Assembly: GCA_902518505.1 (NCBI GenBank)
Contig: CABYGG010000001.1
Coordinates: forward strand, 124,001 to 188,000
Direction of reading: 5' to 3'
From: an uncultured Alphaproteobacteria bacterium
Lineage (GTDB): Bacteria; Pseudomonadota; Alphaproteobacteria; HIMB59
Length of the DNA stretch: 64,000 nt
A program made the translations under genes and the position numbers. This document shows positions 6,428 through 24,643 of the stretch, in pieces. Every line of letters begins with the position of its first letter. Position 1 is the first letter of the stretch. The notes beneath the pieces are model-generated. The model was given only the letters and a program-made list of their open reading frames with translations. It was not told where the DNA came from and ran no database searches.

Positions 6428-7432
6428 TTAATCAATATTCTCCATCCTCCCACTTCTGACAGATTTATAGGCAGTTTCTGCTAAGAGAAGTGCTCTTCTT
6501 CCGTCCTCAAAGCCAACAGATACAGGCTTTTTTTCCAAAATTGTTTCGACAAATGAGCTAATTGAATTCATATAGGACTCCTGGTATCTCTCAATAAAAA
6601 AATTTAAATAGGGCTCACTCTTATCAACAAACTCTGAATTGTATTTTTTCAATTCATGTGGCTTTCTATTTTCAGATATAACCATCCCTTTACTTCCAAA
6701 CAACTCAACTCTTTGATCGTATCCATAAGTTGCTGATCTAGAGTTGTTTATGTGACATTGTTTCCCCGAGGCTGTTTCCATTATAATCATCAAGGTGTCA
6801 CTATCATTTAATTCAGATTTTATTTTTGGATCTATTAAAGCATTAGAGATTGCAAAAACTTTAACTGGCTCTTCACCAAGCATAAAACGGGCTAAATCAA
6901 AATCATGAATTGTCATATCTCTAAATTGCCCACCAGACACTTTTAAATAATCCCAACTTGGCAGACCTGGATCTCTAGATGTAATCAGACATTGATGAAG
7001 CTCACCAATTTCACCATTAATATAAGATTTTTTTGCAGCCTGATGACCAGGGTCAAATCTTCTATTAAAGCCTAATTGGATTGGAACTTTATTACCTTCA
7101 AGTCTTTTTGAAAACTCATTGACTTTTTTAATATCGAGGTCAATAGGTTTCTCACACAAAACAGGTTTTTTTGATGCAACAGATCTCTCTATGAAATCAA
7201 TATGTGTATTTGTAGGGGAAGATATAAGAACAGCATCAATATCATTATTGTTAAAAATATCATCAACATTTTCCACAGCACGTACGTTTAAATCATTTGA
7301 TACTTTTTTTGCAAATTCTTCATTTGGGTCATAAATGCATACTAAATTTGTCTGTTCATGGAGTTGAATATTCTTAGCATGCATTTGGCCAATTCGCCCG
7401 CACCCAATAACTGCAATGCTAACTTTTTTCAT
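6428..7432 (-). CDS. Gfo/Idh/MocA oxidoreductase, inositol 2-dehydrogenase-like (IolG family)
   Basis: N-terminal Rossmann VAVIGCGRIGQMHAKNI; CEKPIDLD; GGQFRDMTIHDFDLARF. Confidence 0.85.
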   Translation of the reverse strand: MKKVSIAVIGCGRIGQMHAKNIQLHEQTNLVCIYDPNEEFAKKVSNDLNVRAVENVDDIFNNNDIDAVLISSPTNTHIDFIERSVASKKPVLCEKPIDLDIKKVNEFSKRLEGNKVPIQLGFNRRFDPGHQAAKKSYINGEIGELHQCLITSRDPGLPSWDYLKVSGGQFRDMTIHDFDLARFMLGEEPVKVFAISNALIDPKIKSELNDSDTLMIIMETASGKQCHINNSRSATYGYDQRVELFGSKGMVISENRKPHELKKYNSEFVDKSEPYLNFFIERYQESYMNSISSFVETILEKKPVSVGFEDGRRALLLAETAYKSVRSGRMENID

Positions 7433-7476
7433 ATCACAGAATTATAGTATTCTTTAAATTTTAGAAATAAAAAAAA

Positions 7477-7489
7477 ATTCATTTTGAAT
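7477..7489. promoter_or_regulatory. Putative operator palindrome ATTCATTTTGAAT in divergent intergenic region
   Basis: 13 bp with 5-bp perfect arms; same core as sites at 10992 and 15786. Confidence 0.55.
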
Positions 7490-7548
7490 AAAATTTAAGT
7501 ATTCTTTAAAAGGTTTATTTATCTATAATCTTTTCATAGGAGGGGTTT

Positions 7549-8460
7549 ATGAAAGCAAAATTGGGAATAGCGCCTATAGCATGGTCCAATGATGATTTAC
7601 CTGAACTTGGAGGAGAGACTTCTTTGGATACCTGCCTTAGTGAGTCAAAACTTGCTGGATTTACAGGTGTGGAAACTGGTGGAAAATTTCCAAAAACTCC
7701 TGAAAAACTTGGTCCGATTTTAAAAAATCACCAACTATACTTGGCATCAGGGTGGTATTCAGGAACTGTGCTAGATAATGACCTAGAAAATGAAAAAGAT
7801 AAAGTTCTTCAACAACTCACTCTCTTCAGAGACCTAGGCGCAGCTGTTTTAGCATATGGAGAAACATCTGGAACTATCCAAAATATTAGACATGCTCCAT
7901 TAAACACAAAAAGAAAAATACATAGTGAGGACTTTAAAGAGTATGGAAGAAAACTAACATTATTTGCAGAATTTTGTGCAGATTTTGGTGTGCCAATTTC
8001 ATTTCATCATCACATGGGTACAGCGATTGAGACTGAGGATGAGCTTGATAAATTGATGAACCACACTGGTGAGGCAGTAAAAATCTTATTTGATACAGGC
8101 CATATGACCTTTGCAGGAGGCAACTCTTTGAGAGTAATAAATAAATATGCAAAAAGAATAAATCACTTTCATGCTAAAGACATTCGCTCTAAGGTTGTAA
8201 ATGATTTAGATCGATCAAAAAAAAGTTTTTTAGATTTTGTGTTAGAAGGGGCTTTCACAGTACCTGGAGATGGAAATATTAATTTCAAGGAAGTAGTTGA
8301 GGCATTATCAAATAATAATTACGAGGGATGGTTCATTGTCGAGGCAGAGCAAGATCCAGCCAAAGCAAACCCATTTGAATATGCTAAAATTGGAAATAAA
8401 GAACTTTTAGAATGCTTAAGTATGTATGGATATGAAATAGAGGATTATAGAGATGAATAG
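7549..8460 (+). CDS. iolE: Myo-inosose-2 dehydratase-like sugar isomerase/epimerase
   Basis: 303 aa; MKAKLGIAPIAWSNDDLPELGGETSLDTCLSE and HHHMGTAIETEDELDKLM are IolE-like. Confidence 0.8.
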   Translation: MKAKLGIAPIAWSNDDLPELGGETSLDTCLSESKLAGFTGVETGGKFPKTPEKLGPILKNHQLYLASGWYSGTVLDNDLENEKDKVLQQLTLFRDLGAAVLAYGETSGTIQNIRHAPLNTKRKIHSEDFKEYGRKLTLFAEFCADFGVPISFHHHMGTAIETEDELDKLMNHTGEAVKILFDTGHMTFAGGNSLRVINKYAKRINHFHAKDIRSKVVNDLDRSKKSFLDFVLEGAFTVPGDGNINFKEVVEALSNNNYEGWFIVEAEQDPAKANPFEYAKIGNKELLECLSMYGYEIEDYRDE

Positions 8461-9274
8461 TATTAAGGGAAAGTTTGCACTAGTGACTGGAGGAACACAA
8501 GGTTTAGGAGCAGCAATTGCGAAAAATTTTGCCGATAGCGGAGCCGAAGGTGTTGTCACAATTGGTAGAAAAGAAGATAAAGGAAATCAGGTAGCAAAAA
8601 AAATTCAAGATGAAACTGGATGTAAAGTAATTTTTGTAAAAACAGATCTTGGAGAGGTCCATGAGTGTAGAAATGCAGTTTCAGTTGCCAAACAAGAATT
8701 TGGGAGATTGGATGTTCTTGTAAACGCTGCCGGTATTACTGATAGGGGAGATATTGTTAATACGAGCGAAGAACTGTTTGATAAAATGATTGGAACCAAC
8801 TTAAAAGGCCCTTATTTTCTAATACAAGATACAGTGAAAATTATGATTGAAAAAAACATAGAGGGTTCAATTATTAATATTGGATCTGTGGCAGCTATGA
8901 CTGGCCAACCATTCATATCAACTTATTGTGTATCAAAAGGGGCACTTGCAACATTAACAAGGAATACAGCATTCGCTTTGTTAAAAAATAAAATTAGAGT
9001 TAATCAGTTAAATATTGGTTGGATGGCCTCAGATGGAGAACATGAGATACAAACAAAATATCATGGTGCCTCAGAAGATTGGTTAGAAGATGCTGGTAAA
9101 GCTCAACCATTTGGAAGGTTGCTTGATCCAAAAGAGGTAGCTAAGGCAGTTACATTTTTAGCATCTGATGACTCAGGTATGATGACAGGTTCTGTTGTAA
9201 ACTTTGATCAGTCAGTATGGGGAGGATATCCTTTTGCACCTCCTCAGCCTGCAGAAAAAATGGAAATAAAATAA
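8453..9274 (+). CDS. SDR family oxidoreductase
   Basis: TGGTQGLGAAIA, NAAGITDRG, YCVSKGAL. Confidence 0.9.
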   Translation: MNSIKGKFALVTGGTQGLGAAIAKNFADSGAEGVVTIGRKEDKGNQVAKKIQDETGCKVIFVKTDLGEVHECRNAVSVAKQEFGRLDVLVNAAGITDRGDIVNTSEELFDKMIGTNLKGPYFLIQDTVKIMIEKNIEGSIINIGSVAAMTGQPFISTYCVSKGALATLTRNTAFALLKNKIRVNQLNIGWMASDGEHEIQTKYHGASEDWLEDAGKAQPFGRLLDPKEVAKAVTFLASDDSGMMTGSVVNFDQSVWGGYPFAPPQPAEKMEIK

Positions 9275-9275
9275 T

Positions 9276-10961
9276 TTAGTTTAAATATTTTTCAGCACTT
9301 TGTTGACAACTTTTTAATGTAGTCTCCAAATCCTTATTCAAAAAAATATACTCATAAATTTTATGACCAACATCTTCTATAATATTTGAATAGGTTGGTA
9401 GAGGGTATCTTGCCCATTCTATAATTTTTTCCTCCTTTTCCATTTTATCAATTTCATTAAATATTGGACTTAAAGCTCTCACTTCAGGATCATTAACGAC
9501 ACTAAAAACGGGAGATGATAAACTTCCATGCTCTATATAATATTTTATAAATTCAGGAGAGACAAAATTTCGAATATTTTTCATAACAAAAGGTATTTTT
9601 TCTGGAGAGATATTTGAGGGTATACCTAATGAAAAACCACCTATTGGAGATACTTGAAAAGAGGAATTTCCAGCAGGTCTAGGTAAATAACCAGTTTTCT
9701 TATATGCGGGTGAAGCCTCATTTAGTTCAAACAAATGTGCTCTACTACTCCAATTCATTGCCATAGCTGATTTACCCTGACTATAATATTCAACACATTC
9801 ATCATTGGAATGAGCAGACAATTCATTTGGCGAGTATAAAGTCAATTTTTTCAACATTTTAGCCGCTTCAAAAGATGCATCAGATAAAAAATTTGCTTTT
9901 AAGAGTATTTTTTCCACATCTAAATCATAAATATTTTTCCCAATATACCTAAGGTTTACATATGGTTTTCCATAATTTGCCATTGCTAAAATAAAACTAG
10001 TAGCAAGTGGTTGTCCTTTTTTAGCTGGCCAAGAAATAGGACTTTCTATCTGTTTGTCACCTTTTAATACCTCACAGGCATGGAGTAAATCCTGAAATGT
10101 TTTTGGTGGGCTCAAAGCATATTTTTGAAAAATATCTGTTCTATAAAATAATAGATCAGGAATTGCTTCGATCGGTATCCCATAAAGTTTTTTATTAAAA
10201 GAACTTGATCTTACTCCTGAATAGTGAAAGTCATTCAAATTTATACCAACATCTTTAACAAAACTATTTAAAGGAAGAAGGCAATTTAATTTAGTTAACT
10301 GTCCAATCCATGGAATATTAAAAGCAACTATATCAAATTTAGACTTTTTATTTGATGAGGAATTTTTAATTATTACATTAAGTAGTTTTTTTAAATCACC
10401 TTCAATAATAAGTTCAATTTCACAATCAAGTATATATTCAAAAAAATCAATATTCTTATTTATCACTTTAAATGTTGGATTATCATTGGCAAGAAAGTTA
10501 ATTTTTTTGTATTTTTTATTTTGATTTATTATAACATTTGGTGCAGGTATAATATTTCCCGCAGACAGAGAAGTTCCAAAAAAATAATTATCATTAAAAT
10601 CACTATAACCTAAGTTCAAGGCCACCTCTTTTTTGATTGAAAGTAAATAATCCGTGAACTCTTTAATGAGATTATTACTTGGATGTATAGAAAACGATTT
10701 ACCTGATTTTGTTTTTGATCTTTGTATTAATTTTTTTTCTTGAATAAGTTTTTTTACTCTTCTCAAACCAGTTGCAAATGGCAAACCTGATGCCTGGATG
10801 ATACTCGTAGTAGTGGTAATTTTATTGTCTAGATGGTTGATAATAACATAAGAAAAAATATTCCAATCAGCGTCAATTGTTTTAATTGAAATAGATCTGT
10901 TAAATAAAAGTCTTGTTTTATCAACAAATTTTAAAAGAGTGGTAATCTCGTTTCTATTCAT
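9276..10961 (-). CDS. Predicted transcriptional regulator: N-terminal winged helix fused to extracellular solute-binding protein family 1-like domain
   Basis: 561 aa, no signal peptide. N-terminus TTTTSIIQASGLPFATGLRRVKKLIQEKKLIQRSKTKSGKSFSIHPS is wHTH-like; the rest (FDIVAFNIPWIGQLTKLNCLLPLNSFV...KKLYGIPIEAIPDLLFYRTDIFQKYALSPPKTFQDLLHA...GKSAMAMNWSSR...PIGGFSLGIPS) resembles sugar SBPs. Confidence 0.75.
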   Translation of the reverse strand: MNRNEITTLLKFVDKTRLLFNRSISIKTIDADWNIFSYVIINHLDNKITTTTSIIQASGLPFATGLRRVKKLIQEKKLIQRSKTKSGKSFSIHPSNNLIKEFTDYLLSIKKEVALNLGYSDFNDNYFFGTSLSAGNIIPAPNVIINQNKKYKKINFLANDNPTFKVINKNIDFFEYILDCEIELIIEGDLKKLLNVIIKNSSSNKKSKFDIVAFNIPWIGQLTKLNCLLPLNSFVKDVGINLNDFHYSGVRSSSFNKKLYGIPIEAIPDLLFYRTDIFQKYALSPPKTFQDLLHACEVLKGDKQIESPISWPAKKGQPLATSFILAMANYGKPYVNLRYIGKNIYDLDVEKILLKANFLSDASFEAAKMLKKLTLYSPNELSAHSNDECVEYYSQGKSAMAMNWSSRAHLFELNEASPAYKKTGYLPRPAGNSSFQVSPIGGFSLGIPSNISPEKIPFVMKNIRNFVSPEFIKYYIEHGSLSSPVFSVVNDPEVRALSPIFNEIDKMEKEEKIIEWARYPLPTYSNIIEDVGHKIYEYIFLNKDLETTLKSCQQSAEKYLN

Positions 10962-10991
10962 TTGATAGTATTATATTATAAATTCGTTAAA

Positions 10992-11008
10992 ATATTCAAT
11001 TTGAATAT
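10992..11008. promoter_or_regulatory. Putative operator palindrome ATATTCAATTTGAATAT
   Basis: Perfect 8-bp arms around a single T, between the divergent regulator (10961) and SBP (11074). Confidence 0.65.
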
Positions 11009-11073: not shown

Positions 11074-12117
11074 ATGAACAAACTAATAAAAGTATTAGCT
11101 GTTCTAATGTGCTTTTCTTTCGGTTCAGCTAAAGCAGTTGAAATCGTGTCTTTTAATGCTGCGTCATCTGAGGCTTATGTTGGTGCGTTCGTTAAAGGTA
11201 TTAAAGCTACAGCAGAGCAATATGGCTATGATATTACTGTTTTTGAAAACAACTATAACCAAGCAGAGCAAAACCAACAAGTAGAACAATACTTGTCAAG
11301 TGGTGCACTACCTGATGTATTTATTTGGTGGCCACCTGATGCTGTTGCAGGTTTAGGTTCGTTAAGAAAGCTTGCTAAAACTGGAGTACCAGTTTTAAAA
11401 ATCAATCAGTTACCTAATGAGCAAGATAAAGCATTCATCTTTGGATATGCCGGACCAGATGATAGTCTTCGCGCTTATAACGCAGGTGAGATGATGGTTA
11501 AAGCTATGAAGATGAAACAAGCTGCTGGTGGAGATGGATATAATGTTATTGCATTATCATATCCTCACTCTTACGGTGGATATGGCTTATCAATCAATGC
11601 TTTTAAACAAGCTATCGCTGGAACTGACTTAAATCTTATCGGTGACATCGGTGAGGGATTTGGACAGGCTAACGGTTATAAAGGTGCAGCTAAGCTTATA
11701 GCTAAAGTTAAAGATCAGGGAATTCATTTTGTATATGGTATGGACGATGCGATCTTAACTGGTGGTATTAAGGCTTTAGAAGAAGCTGGTTATAATGTTG
11801 ACTGGTATGCAGGTACTGGCAAAAGTGGCAGTGTAGATAGTGATGCTGTCATTACAGTTGGTACTGTGTGTAACGGTGATAAGCAGATGATTACTGATGG
11901 AAAGCAATTTGGTACTACTCTACAATCACCTCTTCATGAAGGTCAATTAGCTATAGCTCTTGTTAAAGAGTATATGGAGAACGGTAAGCTAGCAAACTAC
12001 ATTAACTTTACACCTAACCCTTCAGTGACTGGTGCCACTATGGACTTCACAGCACTTAGAGGTTTTGATGGTAAGTTATATGGCATCAACGAGCTTTGCT
12101 CAGGTGCTTGGGACTAA
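11074..12117 (+). CDS. Sugar ABC transporter substrate-binding protein (Peripla_BP_4 type)
   Basis: Signal peptide MNKLIKVLAVLMCFSFGSAKA; strong SD aggagg; followed by ABC and permease genes. Confidence 0.88.
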   Translation: MNKLIKVLAVLMCFSFGSAKAVEIVSFNAASSEAYVGAFVKGIKATAEQYGYDITVFENNYNQAEQNQQVEQYLSSGALPDVFIWWPPDAVAGLGSLRKLAKTGVPVLKINQLPNEQDKAFIFGYAGPDDSLRAYNAGEMMVKAMKMKQAAGGDGYNVIALSYPHSYGGYGLSINAFKQAIAGTDLNLIGDIGEGFGQANGYKGAAKLIAKVKDQGIHFVYGMDDAILTGGIKALEEAGYNVDWYAGTGKSGSVDSDAVITVGTVCNGDKQMITDGKQFGTTLQSPLHEGQLAIALVKEYMENGKLANYINFTPNPSVTGATMDFTALRGFDGKLYGINELCSGAWD

Positions 12118-12143
12118 GTTTTAGTCTTTTCATAAAAATTTTT

Positions 12144-12173
12144 ACACACAGGGAGCTATCCCTGTGTGTTTTT
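12144..12173 (+). terminator. Intrinsic terminator/attenuator hairpin between SBP and ATPase genes
   Basis: ACACACAGGGA-GCTA-TCCCTGTGTGT followed by TTTT; 11 bp perfect stem. Confidence 0.88.
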
Positions 12174-12206
12174 AATAAATAAAAAAGGTGTACAATCTCT
12201 TTTAAT

Positions 12207-13715
12207 ATGTCCACAAATCCAATTCTTAAAATTACAAATGTTTCTAGGACTTTTGGAGCTATACAGGCTCTAAAAGAAGCAAATTTTGAGATAAATGAAG
12301 GTGAAATTATGGGACTAGTTGGAGAAAATGGAGCTGGGAAATCAACTCTTGTAAAAATTATAAGTGGATTTGACCCTGGTTTTAAGGGCAGCTATCAAAT
12401 CAATAATAAAGAAGTAAAATTTGAAACACCTTCACAAGCTGAGGAGTCTGGCATTGCTATTGCTCAACAAGAATTAAGCTTGATCCCTAATATGTCAGTT
12501 GCAGAAAATATTTTTCTTACTGGAGCTAAAGTAAAAAAATTTGCCACTCTTAATACATTGGCAAAGATGGCACGCCCATATCTTGATCAAGTTGGATTAA
12601 CTGAAGTAGACCCAACTACTAGAATAAATTTATTATCTGTTGGTGAACAACATTTGGTAGAAGTAGCTAGATTAATTTCTAGAGAAGCAAAAATTTTAAT
12701 TTTAGATGAGCCTACAGCTGCGTTGGGTGAAGCAGAGAGTCGAAGAATTTTAGAAATGGTTGAGCGTCTTGCAGCAAATGGTAAATCAATAATATATGTA
12801 AGTCATAGACTGGACGAAATTTTTAAGATTACAAAAAGAATAACAATATTAAGAGATGGAGTAAGTCAAGGTATTCAAGAAACTAAAGATATTGATGTAA
12901 ATAAACTAGTTGAAATTATGCTTGGAAGAGAATTGGCAAATATGTTCCCATCAAAAGCTGACCATATAAGTGATGATCCAAAATTAGAAGTAAAAGAACT
13001 TTGGCCTGATGGCGTTTTAGAGCCGGTTAGTTTTTCAGCCTTCAAAGGAGAGATACTTGGACTCTCTGGGCAACTTGGTAGTGGAGCAGGTGAAGTATTA
13101 GCCTCCATAGCAGGCGCACTTCAATCTAGATCAGGTTCACTCACTTTGAACGGTGAAACCTTTTTACCAAAATCACCAAGTCATGCTATAAAGAAAAAAA
13201 TTGCATATTGCTCCTCCGATAGAAAAAAAGATGGTCTTTTTCTTGGACGTCCAATATTTGAGAATTTAACCTCCCCAGCACTTGGTGCTATATCAAAATA
13301 TGGTTTTAACTTTGGCAGTTCTGAGGATAATTATTCCAAAAATTTAGCAAAAGAGTTCTTAATTGATGTCAAAAGAATGCACGATGAGTCAGGTCTTTTA
13401 AGTGGCGGAAATCAACAAAAAGTAGCATTAGGAAAATGGCTTTCAATTAAGCCCGATGTATTGCTTGTGAATGAGCCGACAAGAGGTGTTGATGTTGGTG
13501 CTAAATCAGAGATATATCAAAGAATGAGAGAATTAGCAGCAAGGGGAATTACAATTATTTTTGCCTCAACTGACATCCAAGAAATCACGTATCTTCCTGA
13601 CAGGGTGATTACATTTTATAGAGGAATGATGATTGATGAACACCGATTAGAAAAAATTAAAACACCTCTTATTCTTAAAGAGATTACTGACCCATTTAAC
13701 GAGACAAACCTATGA
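12207..13715 (+). CDS. Sugar ABC transporter ATP-binding protein (two-domain, RbsA/MglA-like)
   Basis: GENGAGKST, ILILDEPTAALGEAE, second-half LSGGNQQKVALGKWL. Confidence 0.93.
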   Translation: MSTNPILKITNVSRTFGAIQALKEANFEINEGEIMGLVGENGAGKSTLVKIISGFDPGFKGSYQINNKEVKFETPSQAEESGIAIAQQELSLIPNMSVAENIFLTGAKVKKFATLNTLAKMARPYLDQVGLTEVDPTTRINLLSVGEQHLVEVARLISREAKILILDEPTAALGEAESRRILEMVERLAANGKSIIYVSHRLDEIFKITKRITILRDGVSQGIQETKDIDVNKLVEIMLGRELANMFPSKADHISDDPKLEVKELWPDGVLEPVSFSAFKGEILGLSGQLGSGAGEVLASIAGALQSRSGSLTLNGETFLPKSPSHAIKKKIAYCSSDRKKDGLFLGRPIFENLTSPALGAISKYGFNFGSSEDNYSKNLAKEFLIDVKRMHDESGLLSGGNQQKVALGKWLSIKPDVLLVNEPTRGVDVGAKSEIYQRMRELAARGITIIFASTDIQEITYLPDRVITFYRGMMIDEHRLEKIKTPLILKEITDPFNETNL

Positions 13716-14752
13716 GTGCTATTATCGAAAATAATCAATTACCTTTTTCTACAAAATTTTTGCAATTCTATAAAGATCGCACACTTCTTGCTATTTTGTT
13801 GTCACTTTTTGCTGTGATGTTTATATATGGAATTTTTTTCACAGAAAATTATTTAACAATAACCAATTTTAAAGCAATTATCAGAGATGCAGCACTATAT
13901 GGCATTATGGCTATAGGACTCACATTTGTAACTCTGTCAGGAAATTTTTTTTTATTGTCATTAAAAGAAACAGCATCAATTTGTGGTGTTACGTTTGCTA
14001 TGGGTATGGCTACTGGTTTTGGATCACCAGATCTTGCAGGAAACTTTTTAGTTTCACTATTAGCTGCTTTAGCAGTAGGTGTCGTAAGTGGAGTAATACA
14101 AGGATATTTTGTTGGAATGGGAGGCAACCCAATTGTAGTAACATTAGGTGGAGCAGGCATCCTATATGGTATTGGTGCATGGTGGAGTGATAACCTTGTA
14201 ATAAACTTTACTAGACCTCATGATGCAGAATGGTTAGGGACTGGTTCTTTTCTAGGTCTTCCCAGTATTACATGGTCATTTATTTTAATAGCCATTGCTG
14301 CTGAAATAGTTTTAAGACATACAAATTTTGGAAGAAAAGTTTATTTAGTCGGAGCAAACAAAGCTGCTGGAAAAGCCACTGGTCATGAAAATTTTTCCAT
14401 GGCAATAATAGTTTTTACAATTTGTTCTGTTTGCTGTGCTTTTGTTGCAGTTGCTTTTGTTGCTCAAATGGATAGTGCTCAATCTAATTATTTTTCTGCA
14501 GAATTTGGATCTTCAGGTGACATGACAATACTCGTTATAGCAACTGTCATGGTTGGTGGAAATTCAATAATGGGCGGTTATGGATCTACTTTAAGAACTA
14601 GTTTGGGAGCAATTTTTATTGCTATGGTTGATAATATGATGGTTTTACAAGGATTTAATAGTGGACCTAGAATAGTTGGTGTGGGCTTAATGATCGTCTT
14701 TAGCATCATAGTTTTTGGTTTATTTGCTAAAGGAAGTAGGGCTCAGGAATAA
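13712..14752 (+). CDS. Sugar ABC transporter permease
   Basis: BPD_transp_2-type multi-TM protein; 4-bp overlap with ATPase gene. Confidence 0.88.
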   Translation: MSAIIENNQLPFSTKFLQFYKDRTLLAILLSLFAVMFIYGIFFTENYLTITNFKAIIRDAALYGIMAIGLTFVTLSGNFFLLSLKETASICGVTFAMGMATGFGSPDLAGNFLVSLLAALAVGVVSGVIQGYFVGMGGNPIVVTLGGAGILYGIGAWWSDNLVINFTRPHDAEWLGTGSFLGLPSITWSFILIAIAAEIVLRHTNFGRKVYLVGANKAAGKATGHENFSMAIIVFTICSVCCAFVAVAFVAQMDSAQSNYFSAEFGSSGDMTILVIATVMVGGNSIMGGYGSTLRTSLGAIFIAMVDNMMVLQGFNSGPRIVGVGLMIVFSIIVFGLFAKGSRAQE

Positions 14753-15786
14753 TGGAAAATTTTTTAAAAAAGATTACAAAAGATGTGGATCTCTCTTTTG
14801 CAATCTTATTATCATTTTGTGTTTATGTATTCTTTGCAATTAATATAGAGGTTTTCTTTAGTCACAATATCAGTTTCGCTATTCTTGAAAGGTTTGCAGT
14901 CTTGGGCCTTGTAGGTTTAGCATTAACAATTTGTATAATTGCTGGAGAAATTGATTTATCAATTGGGTCAAACGCAGCCCTATGTGCTGTGATAGTTGTA
15001 AAATTAACAGACCCCTTAGGCGCCCCATTAGCGATGATTATAGGACTTTCAGTTTCAACTTTAATCGGTGCAACACAAGGTTTTGTTATAGCTTTCATAA
15101 GAATAAGAGCGATTGTGATTACAGTTGGTACGCTAATGTTGCTTAGAGGTGTGGCTTTACTAATTGCTGAAGAAAAAACGGTTATGTTAACAGATTTTAG
15201 AGTTCCTGATTTTATTACTACTAAAGTTTTAATGTATTTTTCTCCTGCTAGCCTAACGGTTATCTTCATATTCATTTGTGTAGGAATTTTTATGCGTTAC
15301 ACAAAATATGGAAGAGAAATATATGCGATCGGTGGTGCAAGAAAAGAAGCACTTACTGCAGGTATACCTTTAAGACGCCCAATGATTATAGCTTTTGCGC
15401 TATCAGGTTTTTGTGCCGGTTTTGCTGGAACTGTAATTGGTTTGAAATCAGGAACGGCTCAAGGCTTAGGACTGCAATACCTTCTTTTAGCAGGAACTGT
15501 AGCAGCTTTTGTTGGAGGTGTGAGTATACTAGGGGGAAAGGGTGGTGTTTTAGGAGCTGCTATCGGAGCTTTAACAGTTAATTTTTTAAATACTGGTCTC
15601 GTATTCTATGCACTTCAGGTTCATTTTGTTCAATTATTTACATCAGTGCTTTTGGTAATCGTTATAGTTTTCCAAACTATGTCTAGGGTATTTGACTCGC
15701 GGCAAGCTAGGAAAAGTCTGCTTGCCACAATTGATGAACGAAAAACATCTTTGCTGGAAAAAAAGAGATCGGCTTTAGGTAGATAA
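14752..15786 (+). CDS. Sugar ABC transporter permease
   Basis: IIAGEIDLSIGSNAALCAV motif; overlaps the preceding permease. Confidence 0.9.
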   Translation: MENFLKKITKDVDLSFAILLSFCVYVFFAINIEVFFSHNISFAILERFAVLGLVGLALTICIIAGEIDLSIGSNAALCAVIVVKLTDPLGAPLAMIIGLSVSTLIGATQGFVIAFIRIRAIVITVGTLMLLRGVALLIAEEKTVMLTDFRVPDFITTKVLMYFSPASLTVIFIFICVGIFMRYTKYGREIYAIGGARKEALTAGIPLRRPMIIAFALSGFCAGFAGTVIGLKSGTAQGLGLQYLLLAGTVAAFVGGVSILGGKGGVLGAAIGALTVNFLNTGLVFYALQVHFVQLFTSVLLVIVIVFQTMSRVFDSRQARKSLLATIDERKTSLLEKKRSALGR

Positions 15787-15802
15787 TATTCATTTTGAAT
15801 AT
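15786..15802. promoter_or_regulatory. Putative operator palindrome ATATTCATTTTGAATAT
   Basis: Perfect 7-bp arms around TTT; differs from the 10992 site at one base. Confidence 0.65.
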
Positions 15803-15855
15803 ATTTGAAGTCAGTAATTTAATTACATATTATATAATAAAGATGGAGGAAATTT

Positions 15856-16659
15856 ATGGATAAAGAGAGACTAAAAGGGAAAAATGTCCTTATTACAGGC
15901 GCTGCTCAAGGCATGGGCGCTGCGGTAGGAGAGCACTTTGCTGCCCAAGGAGCCAAAATTTGTCTAACAGATGTCAACCTTGACGGTTGTAAAGAGGTTG
16001 AAGAGAGAATTAGGTCAGCTGGAGGTGAGGCTATCTCATGTAAAGTAGACGTGCGAAATCGTGAAGATCACGTAGCTGCTGTAAAAGCAACAGTTGAAAA
16101 TTTTGGTAGTCTAAATGTTTCTATAAATAATGCTGGAGTAAACAAACCACTCTTCTTCATGGATATAACTGAGGAAAATTATGATTTTATTATGGATATA
16201 AATGTTCGAGGAGCCCTTTTAGGTATGCAAGAACAAGCCCGACAAATGATTAAACAAGGTAAACAAAAAGAACCTTACAAAATTATTCATGTAGCTTCTA
16301 TTTTATCCAGAGAAACTTTTGATGATGTTGTGGTTTATGGAATGAGCAAACATGCTATTGCTGCTCTAATAAAAGGTGGTGCAAAAAGTTTAGTTGAGCA
16401 TGGCATTACCGTTAATGGATATGGCCCTGGCGTAGTTAGAACAGAGCTATGGGAGCAACTAGATAAAGATTTAGTTGCAATTGGAAAATTTGACAAACCC
16501 GGAGAGTCAATGGACTCAATTGCAGAGAATATGATTTTGATGAAGAGGTATTCCTATCCAGAAGACGTAGTGGGCACAGCATCATTTTTAGCATCTAGTG
16601 AGTCTGATTATATGACAGGACAAATACTTATGATTGATGGAGGGATGGTAATTCAATAA
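15856..16659 (+). CDS. SDR family oxidoreductase
   Basis: TGAAQGMGAAVGEHFA, NNAGVNKPLFF, YGMSKHAI; SD ggagg. Confidence 0.9.
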   Translation: MDKERLKGKNVLITGAAQGMGAAVGEHFAAQGAKICLTDVNLDGCKEVEERIRSAGGEAISCKVDVRNREDHVAAVKATVENFGSLNVSINNAGVNKPLFFMDITEENYDFIMDINVRGALLGMQEQARQMIKQGKQKEPYKIIHVASILSRETFDDVVVYGMSKHAIAALIKGGAKSLVEHGITVNGYGPGVVRTELWEQLDKDLVAIGKFDKPGESMDSIAENMILMKRYSYPEDVVGTASFLASSESDYMTGQILMIDGGMVIQ

Positions 16660-17949
16660 ATGAGTGAACCCTCAATCATAAAACCTGAAGATATTAATCC
16701 AAATTACGATTGGCATAGAAGAGTACCTTCTCATGGAAGGACAAATGTAGATTATGAAGAGAGAATTAATTTTCCTAGACTTCACAAATATAGACTAGGA
16801 AGAGCCAGAGAGGCTCTAAAAAATTCAAAAGCCGGTTCACTCCTTTGTTTTGATAATAACAACATCAGATATCTCACAAGCACAGTTATTGGAGAGTGGT
16901 CAAGAGACAAAATATGTAGATATTCTCTATTAGCTCAAGACCATGATCCCGTGCTGTGGGATTTCGGTTCAGCGGCTAAGCATCACCAATTATTTTCGCC
17001 TTGGCTTCCAAAAGAAAATTGGAAGGCAGGAATGGTAGGCTTGAGGGGTACAGTTCATCCTGATGCAGGATTAATGAAAAATGCCGCAAAAGAAATAAAA
17101 TCAATGTTAAATGAGAAGGGATTAGCAAATGAACCCGTTGGTGTGGATCTTGTTGAACCAGCAATGATGTTTGCTCTTCAAGCAGAGGGTTTAGAGATAA
17201 TTGATGGACAGCAAATTCTTCTTGAAGCAAGGGAAATAAAATCAAGAGATGAGCTAATGTTATTAAACCAGGCTGCATCGATGGTTGATGCAACTTATCA
17301 TCAAATTTATGAGACTATGAAGCCTGGCGTTAGTGAAGCCCAAATAGTTGCCAATGCAAATAAGCTTTTATACGAACTTGGTTCAGATGATGTTGAAGCA
17401 ATAAATGCCATTTCAGGCGAAAGATGTAATCCGCATCCACATAATTTTACAGATAGAATTTTTAGACCTGGTGATCAAGCTTTCTTTGACATACTTCAAT
17501 CTTATATGGGCTACAGGACCTGTTATTATAGAACCTTCAATATTGGACGGGCATCAGACTCTCAAAATGATGCCTACAAGCAATGTCGAGAGTGGCTAGA
17601 CAAAGCCATTGAACTTGTAAAACCTGGAGTATCTACAGATAAAATTGCATCAGTATGGCCGAAGGCTGAGGAATTTGGTTTTGCAAATGAAATGTCAGCA
17701 TTCGCATTACAGTTTGGACATGGTTTAGGTTTGGCAATTCATGAAAGACCAATAATCAGTAGATTGGTTTCAATGGACTCACCTGACGAAATTAAAGAAG
17801 GAATGGTTTTTGCTCTTGAAACCTACTGTCCTGCAAAAGATGGTTATTCTGCCGCGCGAATTGAAGAAGAATTGATTGTTACTGATAAAGGATGCCAAGT
17901 GATTTCCTTGTTTCCCGCTGAAGATCTACCTATTGCTAATAAATATTAA
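16660..17949 (+). CDS. M24 (creatinase/Xaa-Pro aminopeptidase-like) family protein
   Basis: 429 aa; pita-bread fold motifs (FGHGLGLAIHERPIIS, EGMVFALETYCPAKDGYSAARIEEELIVT). Confidence 0.85.
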   Translation: MSEPSIIKPEDINPNYDWHRRVPSHGRTNVDYEERINFPRLHKYRLGRAREALKNSKAGSLLCFDNNNIRYLTSTVIGEWSRDKICRYSLLAQDHDPVLWDFGSAAKHHQLFSPWLPKENWKAGMVGLRGTVHPDAGLMKNAAKEIKSMLNEKGLANEPVGVDLVEPAMMFALQAEGLEIIDGQQILLEAREIKSRDELMLLNQAASMVDATYHQIYETMKPGVSEAQIVANANKLLYELGSDDVEAINAISGERCNPHPHNFTDRIFRPGDQAFFDILQSYMGYRTCYYRTFNIGRASDSQNDAYKQCREWLDKAIELVKPGVSTDKIASVWPKAEEFGFANEMSAFALQFGHGLGLAIHERPIISRLVSMDSPDEIKEGMVFALETYCPAKDGYSAARIEEELIVTDKGCQVISLFPAEDLPIANKY

Positions 17950-18953
17950 TGGTAGATAAATTAAATGACGATATAGGAGAAGAGAAAAGACTTCAATTAT
18001 GGGAAATGATGCTGAAATTAAGGTTAGTCGAAAAAAAAGCATATGATCTTTTTCTTCAAAATCTTATCAAAGGTACTAGCCATTTAGCTCTAGGTCAGGA
18101 AGCTATTGCAGGTGCCTTTGGAGTCGCCTTGAAACAGGGCGATTATACATTTTGCACATACCGTGGGCACGCACATACACTCGCAAGAGGATCCTCAATC
18201 GAGGGAGTTTTAGGAGAATTAATGGGTAGACAGTGTGGCTTGATGAAAGGTAAAGGAGGATCCATGCATCTTACAGATGTAGATAATGGAGTTATGGGTT
18301 CATATGCTATTATAGGTGCTCATTTAACTATAGCCAATGGCACTGCTTTAGCATCAAAATATAATAAAACAAATGAGGTAAGCGTTTGCTTTTTTGGAGA
18401 CGGTACTACGAATATCGGAGCATTCCATGAGGCATTGAACATGGCAAAAATTTGGAATTTACCCATAGTTTTTGTTTGTGAAAATAATTTATATATGGAA
18501 TATACACCAATTCATGAAGTTACTGCTGTTGAGCACCCAGCTGCTGATAGAGCAGGTGCATACGATTTAGATAAAATTATTGTGGACGGAAATGATGCTG
18601 ATGAAATGCTCAGAACAGCAGAAAAAGCTATTTCAAAAGCGAGAGAGGGTAAAGGTCCAAGTTTAATTGAGGCCAAGACTTATCGACATAGTGGGCATTC
18701 AAGAGCTGACCCAGGTAAGTACAGACCTGATGAGGAAGTAAAAGATTGGATGGAAAACAAAGACCCAATAAAAAATTACAGAGCAAAGTTGTTAGATTTT
18801 AATATCAATGAAAAAATAATTTCTGAAATTGAGGAGAAAATTAAGGATCAAGTTGAAAAAGCAACTGAAATTTCCATGGCTTCTCCAATTCCAGAAATTA
18901 AAGAAATATATACTGATGTATGGGCTAATGGAGGTTCTGAGTGGCACAATTAA
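17949..18953 (+). CDS. ThDP-dependent dehydrogenase E1 component alpha subunit (pyruvate/acetoin dehydrogenase type)
   Basis: RGHAHTLARG, GKGGSMHL, FFGDGTTNIGAFHEALNMA, YRHSGHSRADPGKYR. Confidence 0.92.
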   Translation: MVDKLNDDIGEEKRLQLWEMMLKLRLVEKKAYDLFLQNLIKGTSHLALGQEAIAGAFGVALKQGDYTFCTYRGHAHTLARGSSIEGVLGELMGRQCGLMKGKGGSMHLTDVDNGVMGSYAIIGAHLTIANGTALASKYNKTNEVSVCFFGDGTTNIGAFHEALNMAKIWNLPIVFVCENNLYMEYTPIHEVTAVEHPAADRAGAYDLDKIIVDGNDADEMLRTAEKAISKAREGKGPSLIEAKTYRHSGHSRADPGKYRPDEEVKDWMENKDPIKNYRAKLLDFNINEKIISEIEEKIKDQVEKATEISMASPIPEIKEIYTDVWANGGSEWHN

Positions 18954-19924
18954 CATACAGAGCAAGTGTTTCACTCGCTATAGCTCAATCCATGAGAAAA
19001 GATCAAAAAGTTTTTTTTATTGGCGAAGACGTAGGTGCTGCGGGTGGAGTATTTAAAGCGACCGTCGGTCTCTTAGAGGAGTTTGGTAAAGAGAGAGTCA
19101 TGGATGCACCAATTTCAGAACAGGCGATTTTAGGTGCAGCTATGGGTGCAGCAATGACAGGCTTAAGACCAATAGCAGAAATAATGTTTTCAGATTTTTT
19201 AGCTGTCTGTTGGGATATTGTGGCAAATCAAATTGCTAAAACTAGATATATGTCAGATGGCCAAATCAACATTCCATTGGTCATTAGGACCGCAAACGGT
19301 GGAGGGTCAAAATTTGGTGCACAACATTCTCAAAGTTTAGAGAATTGGTCTATGATGATACCAGGTTTAAAAGTAGTCGCACCAAGCTGCCCTAGTGACG
19401 TGTTGGGTTTGATGGATAGTGCTGTAAAGGACCCTGATCCCGTTATATTTTATGAACATAAATCACTTTATGCATTTAAAGAAGAAATTGAACAAACTGA
19501 TATATCCATTCCTATCGGGGAGGCTAATACGCTTCACGAGGGAAAAGATATTACTATTATTGGTTTAGCTTTAATGGCACAAAGAGCAAAAGAGGCTGCA
19601 TTAATTTTGAGAGACAAACACGATATTAATGCAAAGGTAATCGATCTCAGATCTCTAGTGCCCCTAGATTTACAAACAATAAAAAAATCTGTAATCGAGA
19701 CTGGTCATGTCTTGACAGTAGAAGAAAATCCAAGACTTTGTGGATGGGGAGCGGAAATATCATCTTTAATCTCAGAACATTGTTTTAAAAATTTAAAAGG
19801 CCCTGTCACTAGAGTAACTACACCACATGTACCTTTACCAAGTGCTGACATACTCGAAGATAATACAATTCCCTCAGTGGAACTAATTGTAAAAGAGGTT
19901 ATAAAAAAACTAAAAGGAGAATAA
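18941..19924 (+). CDS. ThDP-dependent dehydrogenase E1 component beta subunit
   Basis: FFIGEDVGAAGGVFKAT, DAPISEQAILGAAMGAAMTGLRPIAEIMFSDF. Confidence 0.92.
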   Translation: MAQLTYRASVSLAIAQSMRKDQKVFFIGEDVGAAGGVFKATVGLLEEFGKERVMDAPISEQAILGAAMGAAMTGLRPIAEIMFSDFLAVCWDIVANQIAKTRYMSDGQINIPLVIRTANGGGSKFGAQHSQSLENWSMMIPGLKVVAPSCPSDVLGLMDSAVKDPDPVIFYEHKSLYAFKEEIEQTDISIPIGEANTLHEGKDITIIGLALMAQRAKEAALILRDKHDINAKVIDLRSLVPLDLQTIKKSVIETGHVLTVEENPRLCGWGAEISSLISEHCFKNLKGPVTRVTTPHVPLPSADILEDNTIPSVELIVKEVIKKLKGE

Positions 19925-19926
19925 TT

Positions 19927-20154
19927 ATGGAAATAATAATGCCATCCCTTGGAGAAACTGTTGACGAGGGAAAAGTAGTAAAGTGGCTTAAAAAAGTCGG
20001 AGATGAAATTAAAGAAGGAGATATACTCTGCGAAGTTGAGACTGATAAGACAGCTGCTGAGATACCTTCAACAGTTAATGGAAAATTAACAGAGATAATT
20101 GCACAAGAAGGAGACACGATCCCTGTAGGTGGTAAAATTGCCACTGTAGAATAA
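19927..20154 (+). CDS. Free-standing lipoyl domain protein
   Basis: 75 aa; MPSLGETVDEGKVVKWLKKVGDEIKEGDILCEVETDKTAAEIPSTVNGKL...; lipoyl-Lys motif ETDKT; no E2 catalytic domain follows. Confidence 0.88.
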   Translation: MEIIMPSLGETVDEGKVVKWLKKVGDEIKEGDILCEVETDKTAAEIPSTVNGKLTEIIAQEGDTIPVGGKIATVE

Positions 20155-20178
20155 GAATTAAAACTGTTATAAATATTT

Positions 20179-21636
20179 ATGGAAATTAAAGACTCAAAAT
20201 TTTATAGAGATAAGTGCTACATTAACGGTGAATGGGTTAATGCCGTCTCAGGTGAGACAATATCTGTTAACAATCCAGCTAACTTGAAAGAGATCGGCAC
20301 TGTACCTAAGTGCGGAACATCTGAAACTAGAAATGCTATAGAAGCAGCAAATAATGCCTGGCCTGAATGGAGGGCAAAATCTGCACGTCAAAGATCAGAA
20401 ATACTCAGAAAATGGTTTGATTTAATGATTGAAAATAAAGAGGAATTAGCTCAAATCATGACAGTTGAACAAGGAAAACCAATAAATGAGTCACGCGGAG
20501 AAATAGGCTATGGAGCCTCTTTTGTAGAATGGTTCTCAGAAGAAGCAAAGAGGGTTTATGGAGATACAATTCCAGATCCCATGACCGATCGAAGAATTGT
20601 TGTTTTGAAGCAACCAGTTGGTGTAGTGGCATCTATTACACCATGGAATTTTCCTAATGCTATGATTACAAGAAAATGTGCACCAGCTTTAGCTGTTGGG
20701 TGCCCAGTTGTAATTAAACCAGCAAGTCAAACTCCTTATTCTGCACTCGCACTAGCTGTTTTGGCTGAGGAGGCAGGTTTCCCAAAAGGAACTTTAAATG
20801 TAATTACTGGAAAGGCCTCTGAAATCGGAGAGGAATTAGCCACAAATCCAATTGTCAGAAAATTATCTTTTACAGGTTCAACAGAAATTGGAAAAATACT
20901 TTTACAGAAATGTTCTGGAACTGTAAAAAAAGTCTCAATGGAACTTGGTGGTCACGCACCCTTCATTGTATTTAATGATGCAAATATTGATGATGCAGTT
21001 GCGGGTGCAATCCAAAGCAAATTTAGAAATACAGGACAAACTTGTGTTTGTGCAAATAGAATTTATGTCCAAGAAAAAGTTCATGATGAGTTCTGTTCAA
21101 AATTTGTTGATGCTGTCTCTAAAATAAAAGTAGGAGATGGTTTAAATGAGGAAAATGCCTCTGGACCCATGATTGATGAGCACTCTTTAAGTAAAGTAGA
21201 GGAGCATGTCCAAGATGCATTGCAATATGGCGCAAAAGTTGCAATTGGTGGATCTAAACATTCTTTGGGAATGAACTTTTATCAGCCTACAATCCTCACT
21301 GAAGTCCCACCAGAAGCAAAAATTACAACTGAAGAAACATTTGGGCCAGTGGCTCCAATATACAAATTTAAAGATGAAAAAGAAGTAATTAAACTCGCAA
21401 ATAACTCACCATATGGACTTGCATCCTATTTTTATTCCAGAGATATCGGAAGAATATGGAGAGTTGCTGAGGCACTTGAATACGGAATGGTTGGAGTCAA
21501 TACTGGATTAACTTCAAAAGCAGAGGCACCATTTGGAGGAATAAAAGAGTCTGGTCTTGGCAGAGAAGGCTCAAAGTATGGAATTGATGATTTTATTGAA
21601 ATAAAATACATCAATATGTGCGGCCTAGACAAATAA
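20179..21636 (+). CDS. NAD(P)-dependent aldehyde dehydrogenase (succinate-semialdehyde dehydrogenase-like)
   Basis: ITPWNFPNAMITRKCAPALA, FTGSTEIGK, ELGGHAPFIVF, NTGQTCVCANR. Confidence 0.9.
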   Translation: MEIKDSKFYRDKCYINGEWVNAVSGETISVNNPANLKEIGTVPKCGTSETRNAIEAANNAWPEWRAKSARQRSEILRKWFDLMIENKEELAQIMTVEQGKPINESRGEIGYGASFVEWFSEEAKRVYGDTIPDPMTDRRIVVLKQPVGVVASITPWNFPNAMITRKCAPALAVGCPVVIKPASQTPYSALALAVLAEEAGFPKGTLNVITGKASEIGEELATNPIVRKLSFTGSTEIGKILLQKCSGTVKKVSMELGGHAPFIVFNDANIDDAVAGAIQSKFRNTGQTCVCANRIYVQEKVHDEFCSKFVDAVSKIKVGDGLNEENASGPMIDEHSLSKVEEHVQDALQYGAKVAIGGSKHSLGMNFYQPTILTEVPPEAKITTEETFGPVAPIYKFKDEKEVIKLANNSPYGLASYFYSRDIGRIWRVAEALEYGMVGVNTGLTSKAEAPFGGIKESGLGREGSKYGIDDFIEIKYINMCGLDK

Positions 21637-23800: not shown

Positions 23801-24643
23801 ATGCACATCCCTTATTCAGATAATAAAAATCAAGCTTTATTTGGAGAAACAAATGAAACAGTACCCTTAGTTTATTTTAATATTATCAATTTAAAAAAAG
23901 GTGAGTCCTATGAATACCAACTATCAAAACATGAAAGTAGCGTAGTTCCAGCAACAGGTATCGTCGAGATTACCGTGGAGGATAATAAGTTAGGACAGAT
24001 TGGAAAAAGAACAACTGACGTATGGGATGGTGAACCTGAGGGTAGTTATATTCCTACAAATTCAAAATGTAAAATTACTTGTTTATCTGACTCCTCTGAG
24101 TGTTTCATAGCTGGTGGAATTTATGAAAAAAAATTAGAGCCATTTCTCGTTTTAAAAGAAGAACTAGATGTTGTTCAATATGGCTCAGACGATACAAAAA
24201 CTCACAGAAAAATTAAACATATCTTGGGTGCGAAACATCATGATCAAGTTGGTCGATTATTAGTAAATGAATTATATACTGTTGGCGCTGGAGGGTGGTC
24301 AGGCTTCCCTCCTCACAAACACGACACAGATGATCTCCCTCAAGAAACACGGCATGATGAAGTTTATAACTATCGATTTAAACCAGGACATGGTTTTGGT
24401 GTTCAAATTATGCAATCAGAAGATGAAAAAGAGGGTCACGGTTATCAACTTTTTAATGGCTCTACTATTGCAATAAATAAAGGATATCATCCATGTGTGG
24501 TTGCCCCAGGATATGAGATGTATTATTTTACAATCCTAGTAGGTCTTTCTCAAAGATCACTTATTCAATCTTTCCAAAAAACCCATGCTTACCAATTAGA
24601 AACAATCCCAGGTATTAAGGATATGATAGCAAAATATAAATGA
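23801..24643 (+). CDS. iolB: 5-deoxy-glucuronate isomerase
   Basis: GGWSGFPPHKHD, RHDEVYNYRFKPGHGFGVQIM, INKGYHPCVVAPGYEMYYFTILVG are typical of IolB. Confidence 0.87.
   Translation: MHIPYSDNKNQALFGETNETVPLVYFNIINLKKGESYEYQLSKHESSVVPATGIVEITVEDNKLGQIGKRTTDVWDGEPEGSYIPTNSKCKITCLSDSSECFIAGGIYEKKLEPFLVLKEELDVVQYGSDDTKTHRKIKHILGAKHHDQVGRLLVNELYTVGAGGWSGFPPHKHDTDDLPQETRHDEVYNYRFKPGHGFGVQIMQSEDEKEGHGYQLFNGSTIAINKGYHPCVVAPGYEMYYFTILVGLSQRSLIQSFQKTHAYQLETIPGIKDMIAKYK

Follow-up and report, generated by a model that had tools for sequence, protein, structure and literature searches.

The gene at positions 9276–10961 of the window (the whole stretch of 64,000 nucleotides analyzed here, from a contig of an uncultured HIMB59 alphaproteobacterium; window coordinate equals contig position minus 124000) quite probably encodes a one-component regulator that controls its own gene and senses an imported sugar or polyol in the cytoplasm, with palindromes in three promoter gaps as its operators and with ligand-released repression as its most likely mode of action. 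A cytoplasmic regulator that joins a winged helix to a solute-binding-protein (SBP) fold had been proposed in the initial annotation, and the proposal is supported by the domain make-up seen with family profiles, the lack of an export signal, the single group formed by the sensor domains in the sampled tree, the gene neighborhood, and the conserved palindromic sites in promoter gaps. The gene and its two domains are as follows.

9276..10961, reverse strand: winged helix-turn-helix (wHTH)–SBP regulator gene, 561 aa, ATG start
10608..10961, reverse strand: MarR/IclR-like winged helix by family profile, N-terminal 118 aa, core at about residues 30–95
9279..10499, reverse strand: SBP_bac_1 (CUT1-type) sensor domain, C-terminal, about residues 155–561

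The C-terminal part, likened from the outset to family 1 SBPs, matches the Pfam families SBP_bac_1 at E=2.3e-19 (residues 201–450) and SBP_bac_8 at 5.5e-17. SBP_bac_1 was found in 28 of 28 family members, the solved sugar SBP 5iai matches the 28-member family profile at 7e-58 over positions 155–560, and the sorbitol SBP 4rya matches the full family profile at 4e-32. The winged helix that had been claimed for the N-terminus becomes evident at the family level, once relatives are included. Searched alone, the window protein matches no Pfam HTH family, and a weak match to the TcaR model (MarR-type) is its sole HTH-type signal. Nineteen of the 28 family members match MarR_2 (best 2.3e-4; the window protein itself is unmatched), the best single HTH match among them is to HTH_IclR (2.2e-7), and the N-domain profile matches the structures of TubR at 3e-4 and SlyA/MarR at 4e-4. 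The conserved N-domain pattern in the 28-member alignment, TSL...SGLPYATA.R.I..M...GLI..RPRT..GKSFSLHPS, can be read as a helix-turn-helix plus wing. The N-domain profile (A3) also matches, to about 1e-15, the winged helix of alphaproteobacterial receiver-type response regulators, two of which were checked and both match MarR_2; response regulators with a related winged helix were seen at L095, L096, L097, L098, L101, and L104.

AlphaFold2 models of the complete protein, run together with ten close relatives (pLDDT 34), and of the N-domain alone (pLDDT 55) were too poor for testing the fold, and Foldseek with the low-confidence N-domain model returned nothing credible. Without a usable structure the ligand-pocket residues could not be mapped, and it might be argued that the SBP domain no longer binds a small molecule and has a role in dimerization or protein contacts, such as docking to the importer. 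This is improbable, given that conservation across many orders extends along the entire SBP part and that the neighboring genes differ by subgroup, as a ligand sensor would suggest.

The homolog search for the same two-domain architecture, put forward as a check in the initial annotation, yielded 28 diverse full-length members that can be aligned end to end with both domains in one chain. By these comparisons the regulator is a member of a family found across Alphaproteobacteria and in Paraburkholderia, and not a one-off. A tblastn search of plasmids returned 34 records with at least 80 per cent coverage, from Skermanella, Rhodobacterales, Rhizobiales including Aminobacter, and Paraburkholderia, which are mostly annotated as ‘extracellular solute-binding protein’. 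Relatives outside the genus share 20–34 per cent identity over their full length; the locus is also carried by other small genomes of the same genus, and one search of genome contigs gave close relatives only. Strong N-domain matches outside the genus (E<1e-20, two whole-genome samples) all lie in open frames of at least 574 aa, which leave room for the SBP part, and such a match occurs in eight genomes besides G000 of the 397 in the phylum sample. In a tree of SBP domains that has some rows on long branches and few transporters sampled, the 28 regulator domains lie on one side of a branch (99/99), with 16 transporter SBPs on the other. Two genomes of the genus hold a copy of the N-domain that lacks the SBP sensor: one of 144 aa at L116:3813-4247, next to a PotD-like ABC operon, and another at L117:1-417, which lies at the edge of its contig and may be truncated.

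The annotation given to most relatives would make the protein an ordinary exported transport SBP, with its N-terminal region a misread extension. Export was judged by hydropathy, as the most hydrophobic 13-mer of the first 60 aa. The 561-aa open reading frame was confirmed, and, in keeping with the initial description of a protein lacking a signal peptide, its top 13-mer scores only 1.0, at residue 29, compared to 2.4–2.5 at residue 4 for two periplasmic SBPs of the window. Among the 28 family members no hydrophobic export segment was seen within the first 60 aa (maximum at most 1.95), and on this measure the exported-protein reading was rejected. The N-terminal winged helix is, moreover, conserved across the family, and the adjoining importer has an SBP of its own (Peripla_BP_4) with a hydrophobic, signal-like start. 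An exported transport SBP is thus exceedingly improbable, and hydropathy supports a regulator that stays in the cytoplasm.

The gene was initially described as divergent from an ABC importer operon and set among inositol-type genes, and both parts of this description were borne out by the neighborhood, in which iolG and iolE exceed their NCBIfam cut-offs.

11074..15786, forward strand: CUT2 sugar importer, divergent from the regulator, with a Peripla_BP_4 SBP, an ATPase, and two permeases
6428..7432, reverse strand: iolG, inositol 2-dehydrogenase (399 bits, NCBIfam cut-off 355), predicted regulon
7549..8460, forward strand: iolE, myo-inosose-2 dehydratase (394 bits, NCBIfam cut-off 290), predicted regulon
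8453..9274, forward strand: SDR oxidoreductase gene, overlapping the end of iolE, predicted regulon
15856..21636, forward strand: SDR, M24, E1 alpha, E1 beta, and aldehyde dehydrogenase genes, in that order, predicted regulon

A likely ligand, and the first candidate, is inositol or a related cyclitol, because of these two genes together with an IolB-like gene at 23801-24643 (below cut-off) and an IolD encoded elsewhere in the genome. A strong terminator-like hairpin of 11 pairs (12144-12169), located between the importer SBP and ATPase genes, possibly lowers expression of the downstream importer genes.

Family genes usually have sugar importers and sugar or polyol dehydrogenases as neighbors. 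Divergence from a sugar importer recurs in Marinovum, Tritonibacter, Phaeobacter, Pacificitalea, and strain SC52, where the regulator is followed by SDR, M24 (Xaa-Pro peptidase-like), E1 alpha, E1 beta, lipoyl/E2, and succinate-semialdehyde-dehydrogenase-like (SSADH-like) genes. This SDR-M24-E1 alpha-E1 beta-SSADH-like block, with lipoyl/E2 in Rhodobacterales, accompanies the regulator both in the window (15856-21636) and on Rhodobacterales plasmids (L038, L039, L040, L064, L065), and is apparently an uncharacterized catabolic unit. Several Rhizobiales carry the regulator with Gfo/Idh/MocA, butanediol-dehydrogenase-like, intradiol dioxygenase, and maleylacetate reductase genes, and because of these other neighbors the substrate there is probably different. 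At the Rhizobiales loci L041, L068, L070, and L071, intradiol dioxygenase and maleylacetate reductase genes adjoin Gfo/Idh or other oxidoreductase genes and the regulator.

The palindrome picked out initially at 10992-11008, ATATTCAATTTGAATAT, is present and conserved. Its core TATTCAAWTTGAATA has one exact occurrence in the 1.2-Mb assembly, in the gap between regulator and importer, and near-copies lie in both of the remaining promoter gaps of this locus.

10993..11007, no strand: predicted operator TATTCAATTTGAATA, regulator/importer gap, the only exact match in the assembly
15787..15801, no strand: predicted operator TATTCATTTTGAATA, before the SDR-M24-E1 operon, the single one-mismatch copy
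7476..7490, no strand: predicted operator AATTCATTTTGAATA, between the divergent iolG and iolE, a two-mismatch copy
10970..10999, reverse strand: promoter-like TTGAAT-18-TATAAT of the regulator gene, with its -35 hexamer inside the operator

Measured against TATTCAWWWTGAATA, a slightly wider form of TATTCAAWTTGAATA that was widened after the three sites had been seen, the sites at 10993-11007, 15787-15801, and 7476-7490 have 0, 0, and 1 mismatches, and the match of each gap was equalled in at most 2 of 2000 shuffles. A genome-wide scan with two mismatches allowed gave 44 sites compared to 21 for the reversed control, and the weaker sites therefore rest on position and conservation. A further two-mismatch site (446-460, upstream of a gene at 535) was not counted, as it has no counterpart with two or fewer mismatches in L118 and L121. 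Two further exact matches in the complete relative G067, near DnaJ-domain and phosphoribosyltransferase-like genes, look like chance.

The importer-gap site is kept in nine of nine related loci examined, and among these related loci the SDR-operon site was found in every one in which that operon follows. Between iolG and iolE, the site is present in L045, L053, L055, L057, L119, L120, and L122 and was not found in L118 and L121; the rearranged L058 has a two-mismatch site before SDR1. When the regulator/importer gap is aligned for six genomes the flanks drift, whereas the palindrome is invariant save for its central base. Boxes resembling TATCCAWWWTGGATA also occur in the corresponding gap of Rhodobacterales and Skermanella relatives, with 20 near-matches in nine regions compared to 0.31 expected, and of the 17 sites in 13 plasmid loci, 15 fall between genes, where intergenic DNA makes up 8.7 per cent of the sequence (P=1e-14, a value that ignores the AT-richness of gaps and the relatedness of loci). 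No clear box was seen in the relatives L042, L043, L069, L070, L123, L128, and L044. Thus in the window, its genus, and most Rhodobacterales a nearby promoter gap contains a TATYCAWWWTGRATA-like palindrome, which is absent or unclear in several relatives. From this co-occurrence of the regulator gene and the sites we infer that the regulator binds these palindromes.

The mechanism that we infer would begin with the N-terminal MarR/IclR-like winged helix, presumably dimeric, bound to the palindrome TATTCAWWWTGAATA at three places in its own locus, namely the promoter gap shared by regulator and ABC importer, the one between iolG and iolE, and the one before the SDR-M24-E1 operon. The SBP domain at the C-terminus, located in the cytoplasm, would bind a sugar or polyol from the neighboring importer or an early intermediate, and closure of the SBP lobes on this ligand would probably rearrange the two winged helices such that the operator is released. 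The outcome would be a ligand-released, autoregulating repressor.

Repression is our first choice, and its main rival is a ligand-dependent activator whose ligand-bound form would bring RNA polymerase to the promoters of the importer and catabolic genes while repressing only its own gene. Escherichia coli SgrR, the best-known HTH–SBP regulator, activates its targets and represses itself. The palindrome at 15787-15801 lies just upstream of a promoter-like TTGAAG-17-TATTAT (15805-15833), which is an activator-like position, and DsvR positively controls sugar uptake genes (PMC13060122). On the other side, the operator overlaps the -35 of the regulator’s own promoter-like site, an arrangement that fits autorepression, although neither positional argument is firm, as promoter-like sites are no more numerous in this region than expected by chance. 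MarR/IclR-like regulators often act as repressors, and with these points taken together we regard activation as possible but unlikely.

Because family members are mostly annotated as exported transport proteins, genome-based transporter and regulator lists of marine and soil alphaproteobacteria would misplace them. Knowing the predicted operator and its regulon of three promoters could help in predicting what the neighboring importers carry. The regulator would also stand alongside SgrR as a separate example of a transport-type binding protein turned cytoplasmic sensor, which would allow structural comparison. The chances are somewhat better than even that a single capture event joined a CUT1 SBP, as cytoplasmic sensor, to a MarR/IclR-like winged helix, independently of SgrR, and that this fusion spread through the alphaproteobacteria into Burkholderiales, with the operator TATYCA-WWW-TGRATA kept and the ligand changing with the catabolic cluster.

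Each half of the regulator has familiar counterparts. It resembles the CUT1 transporter SBPs 5iai, 1eu8, and 4rya in SBP_bac_1 similarity over the whole length of the domain, but unlike those exported proteins it lacks a signal and is fused to a DNA-binding domain. A weak but repeated winged-helix match at the family level likens it to MarR proteins, which are, however, typically about 140-180 aa and have no separate sensor domain. The REC-type response regulators (L095, L101, and others) have a receiver domain in place of the SBP, and their winged helix is C-terminal. LacI family regulators similarly combine a DNA-binding domain with a periplasmic-binding-type sugar sensor, use palindromic operators, and lie beside sugar operons; their HTH is a different one, however, and their sensor is Peripla_BP_1/3, and the LacI HTH and Peripla_BP families are absent among the matches listed (25 of 29 families) for the 28 members.

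The initial annotation knew of no characterized protein with this architecture. That holds for the SBP_bac_1 type, of which a search of mainly freely available papers found no characterized regulator, but the combination of HTH and SBP is itself precedented by SgrR and DsvR, which have SBP_bac_5 and another N-domain (PMC13060122). DsvR/Vca0578 of Vibrio cholerae is a cytoplasmic regulator linked to sugar metabolism, in which an HTH at the N-terminus is joined to a solute-binding domain at the C-terminus (PMC13060122), and the window regulator shares with SgrR and DsvR this order of domains, a cytoplasmic location, and the link to sugar metabolism. SgrR_N (PF12793) was matched by 1 of 28 family members, at only E=0.16, and SBP_bac_5 is absent among the matches listed (25 of 29 families) for the 28. 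Unlike SgrR and DsvR (SgrR_N plus SBP_bac_5), the window family carries a MarR/IclR-like winged helix with SBP_bac_1, and by these domain assignments it is a lineage separate from SgrR/DsvR.
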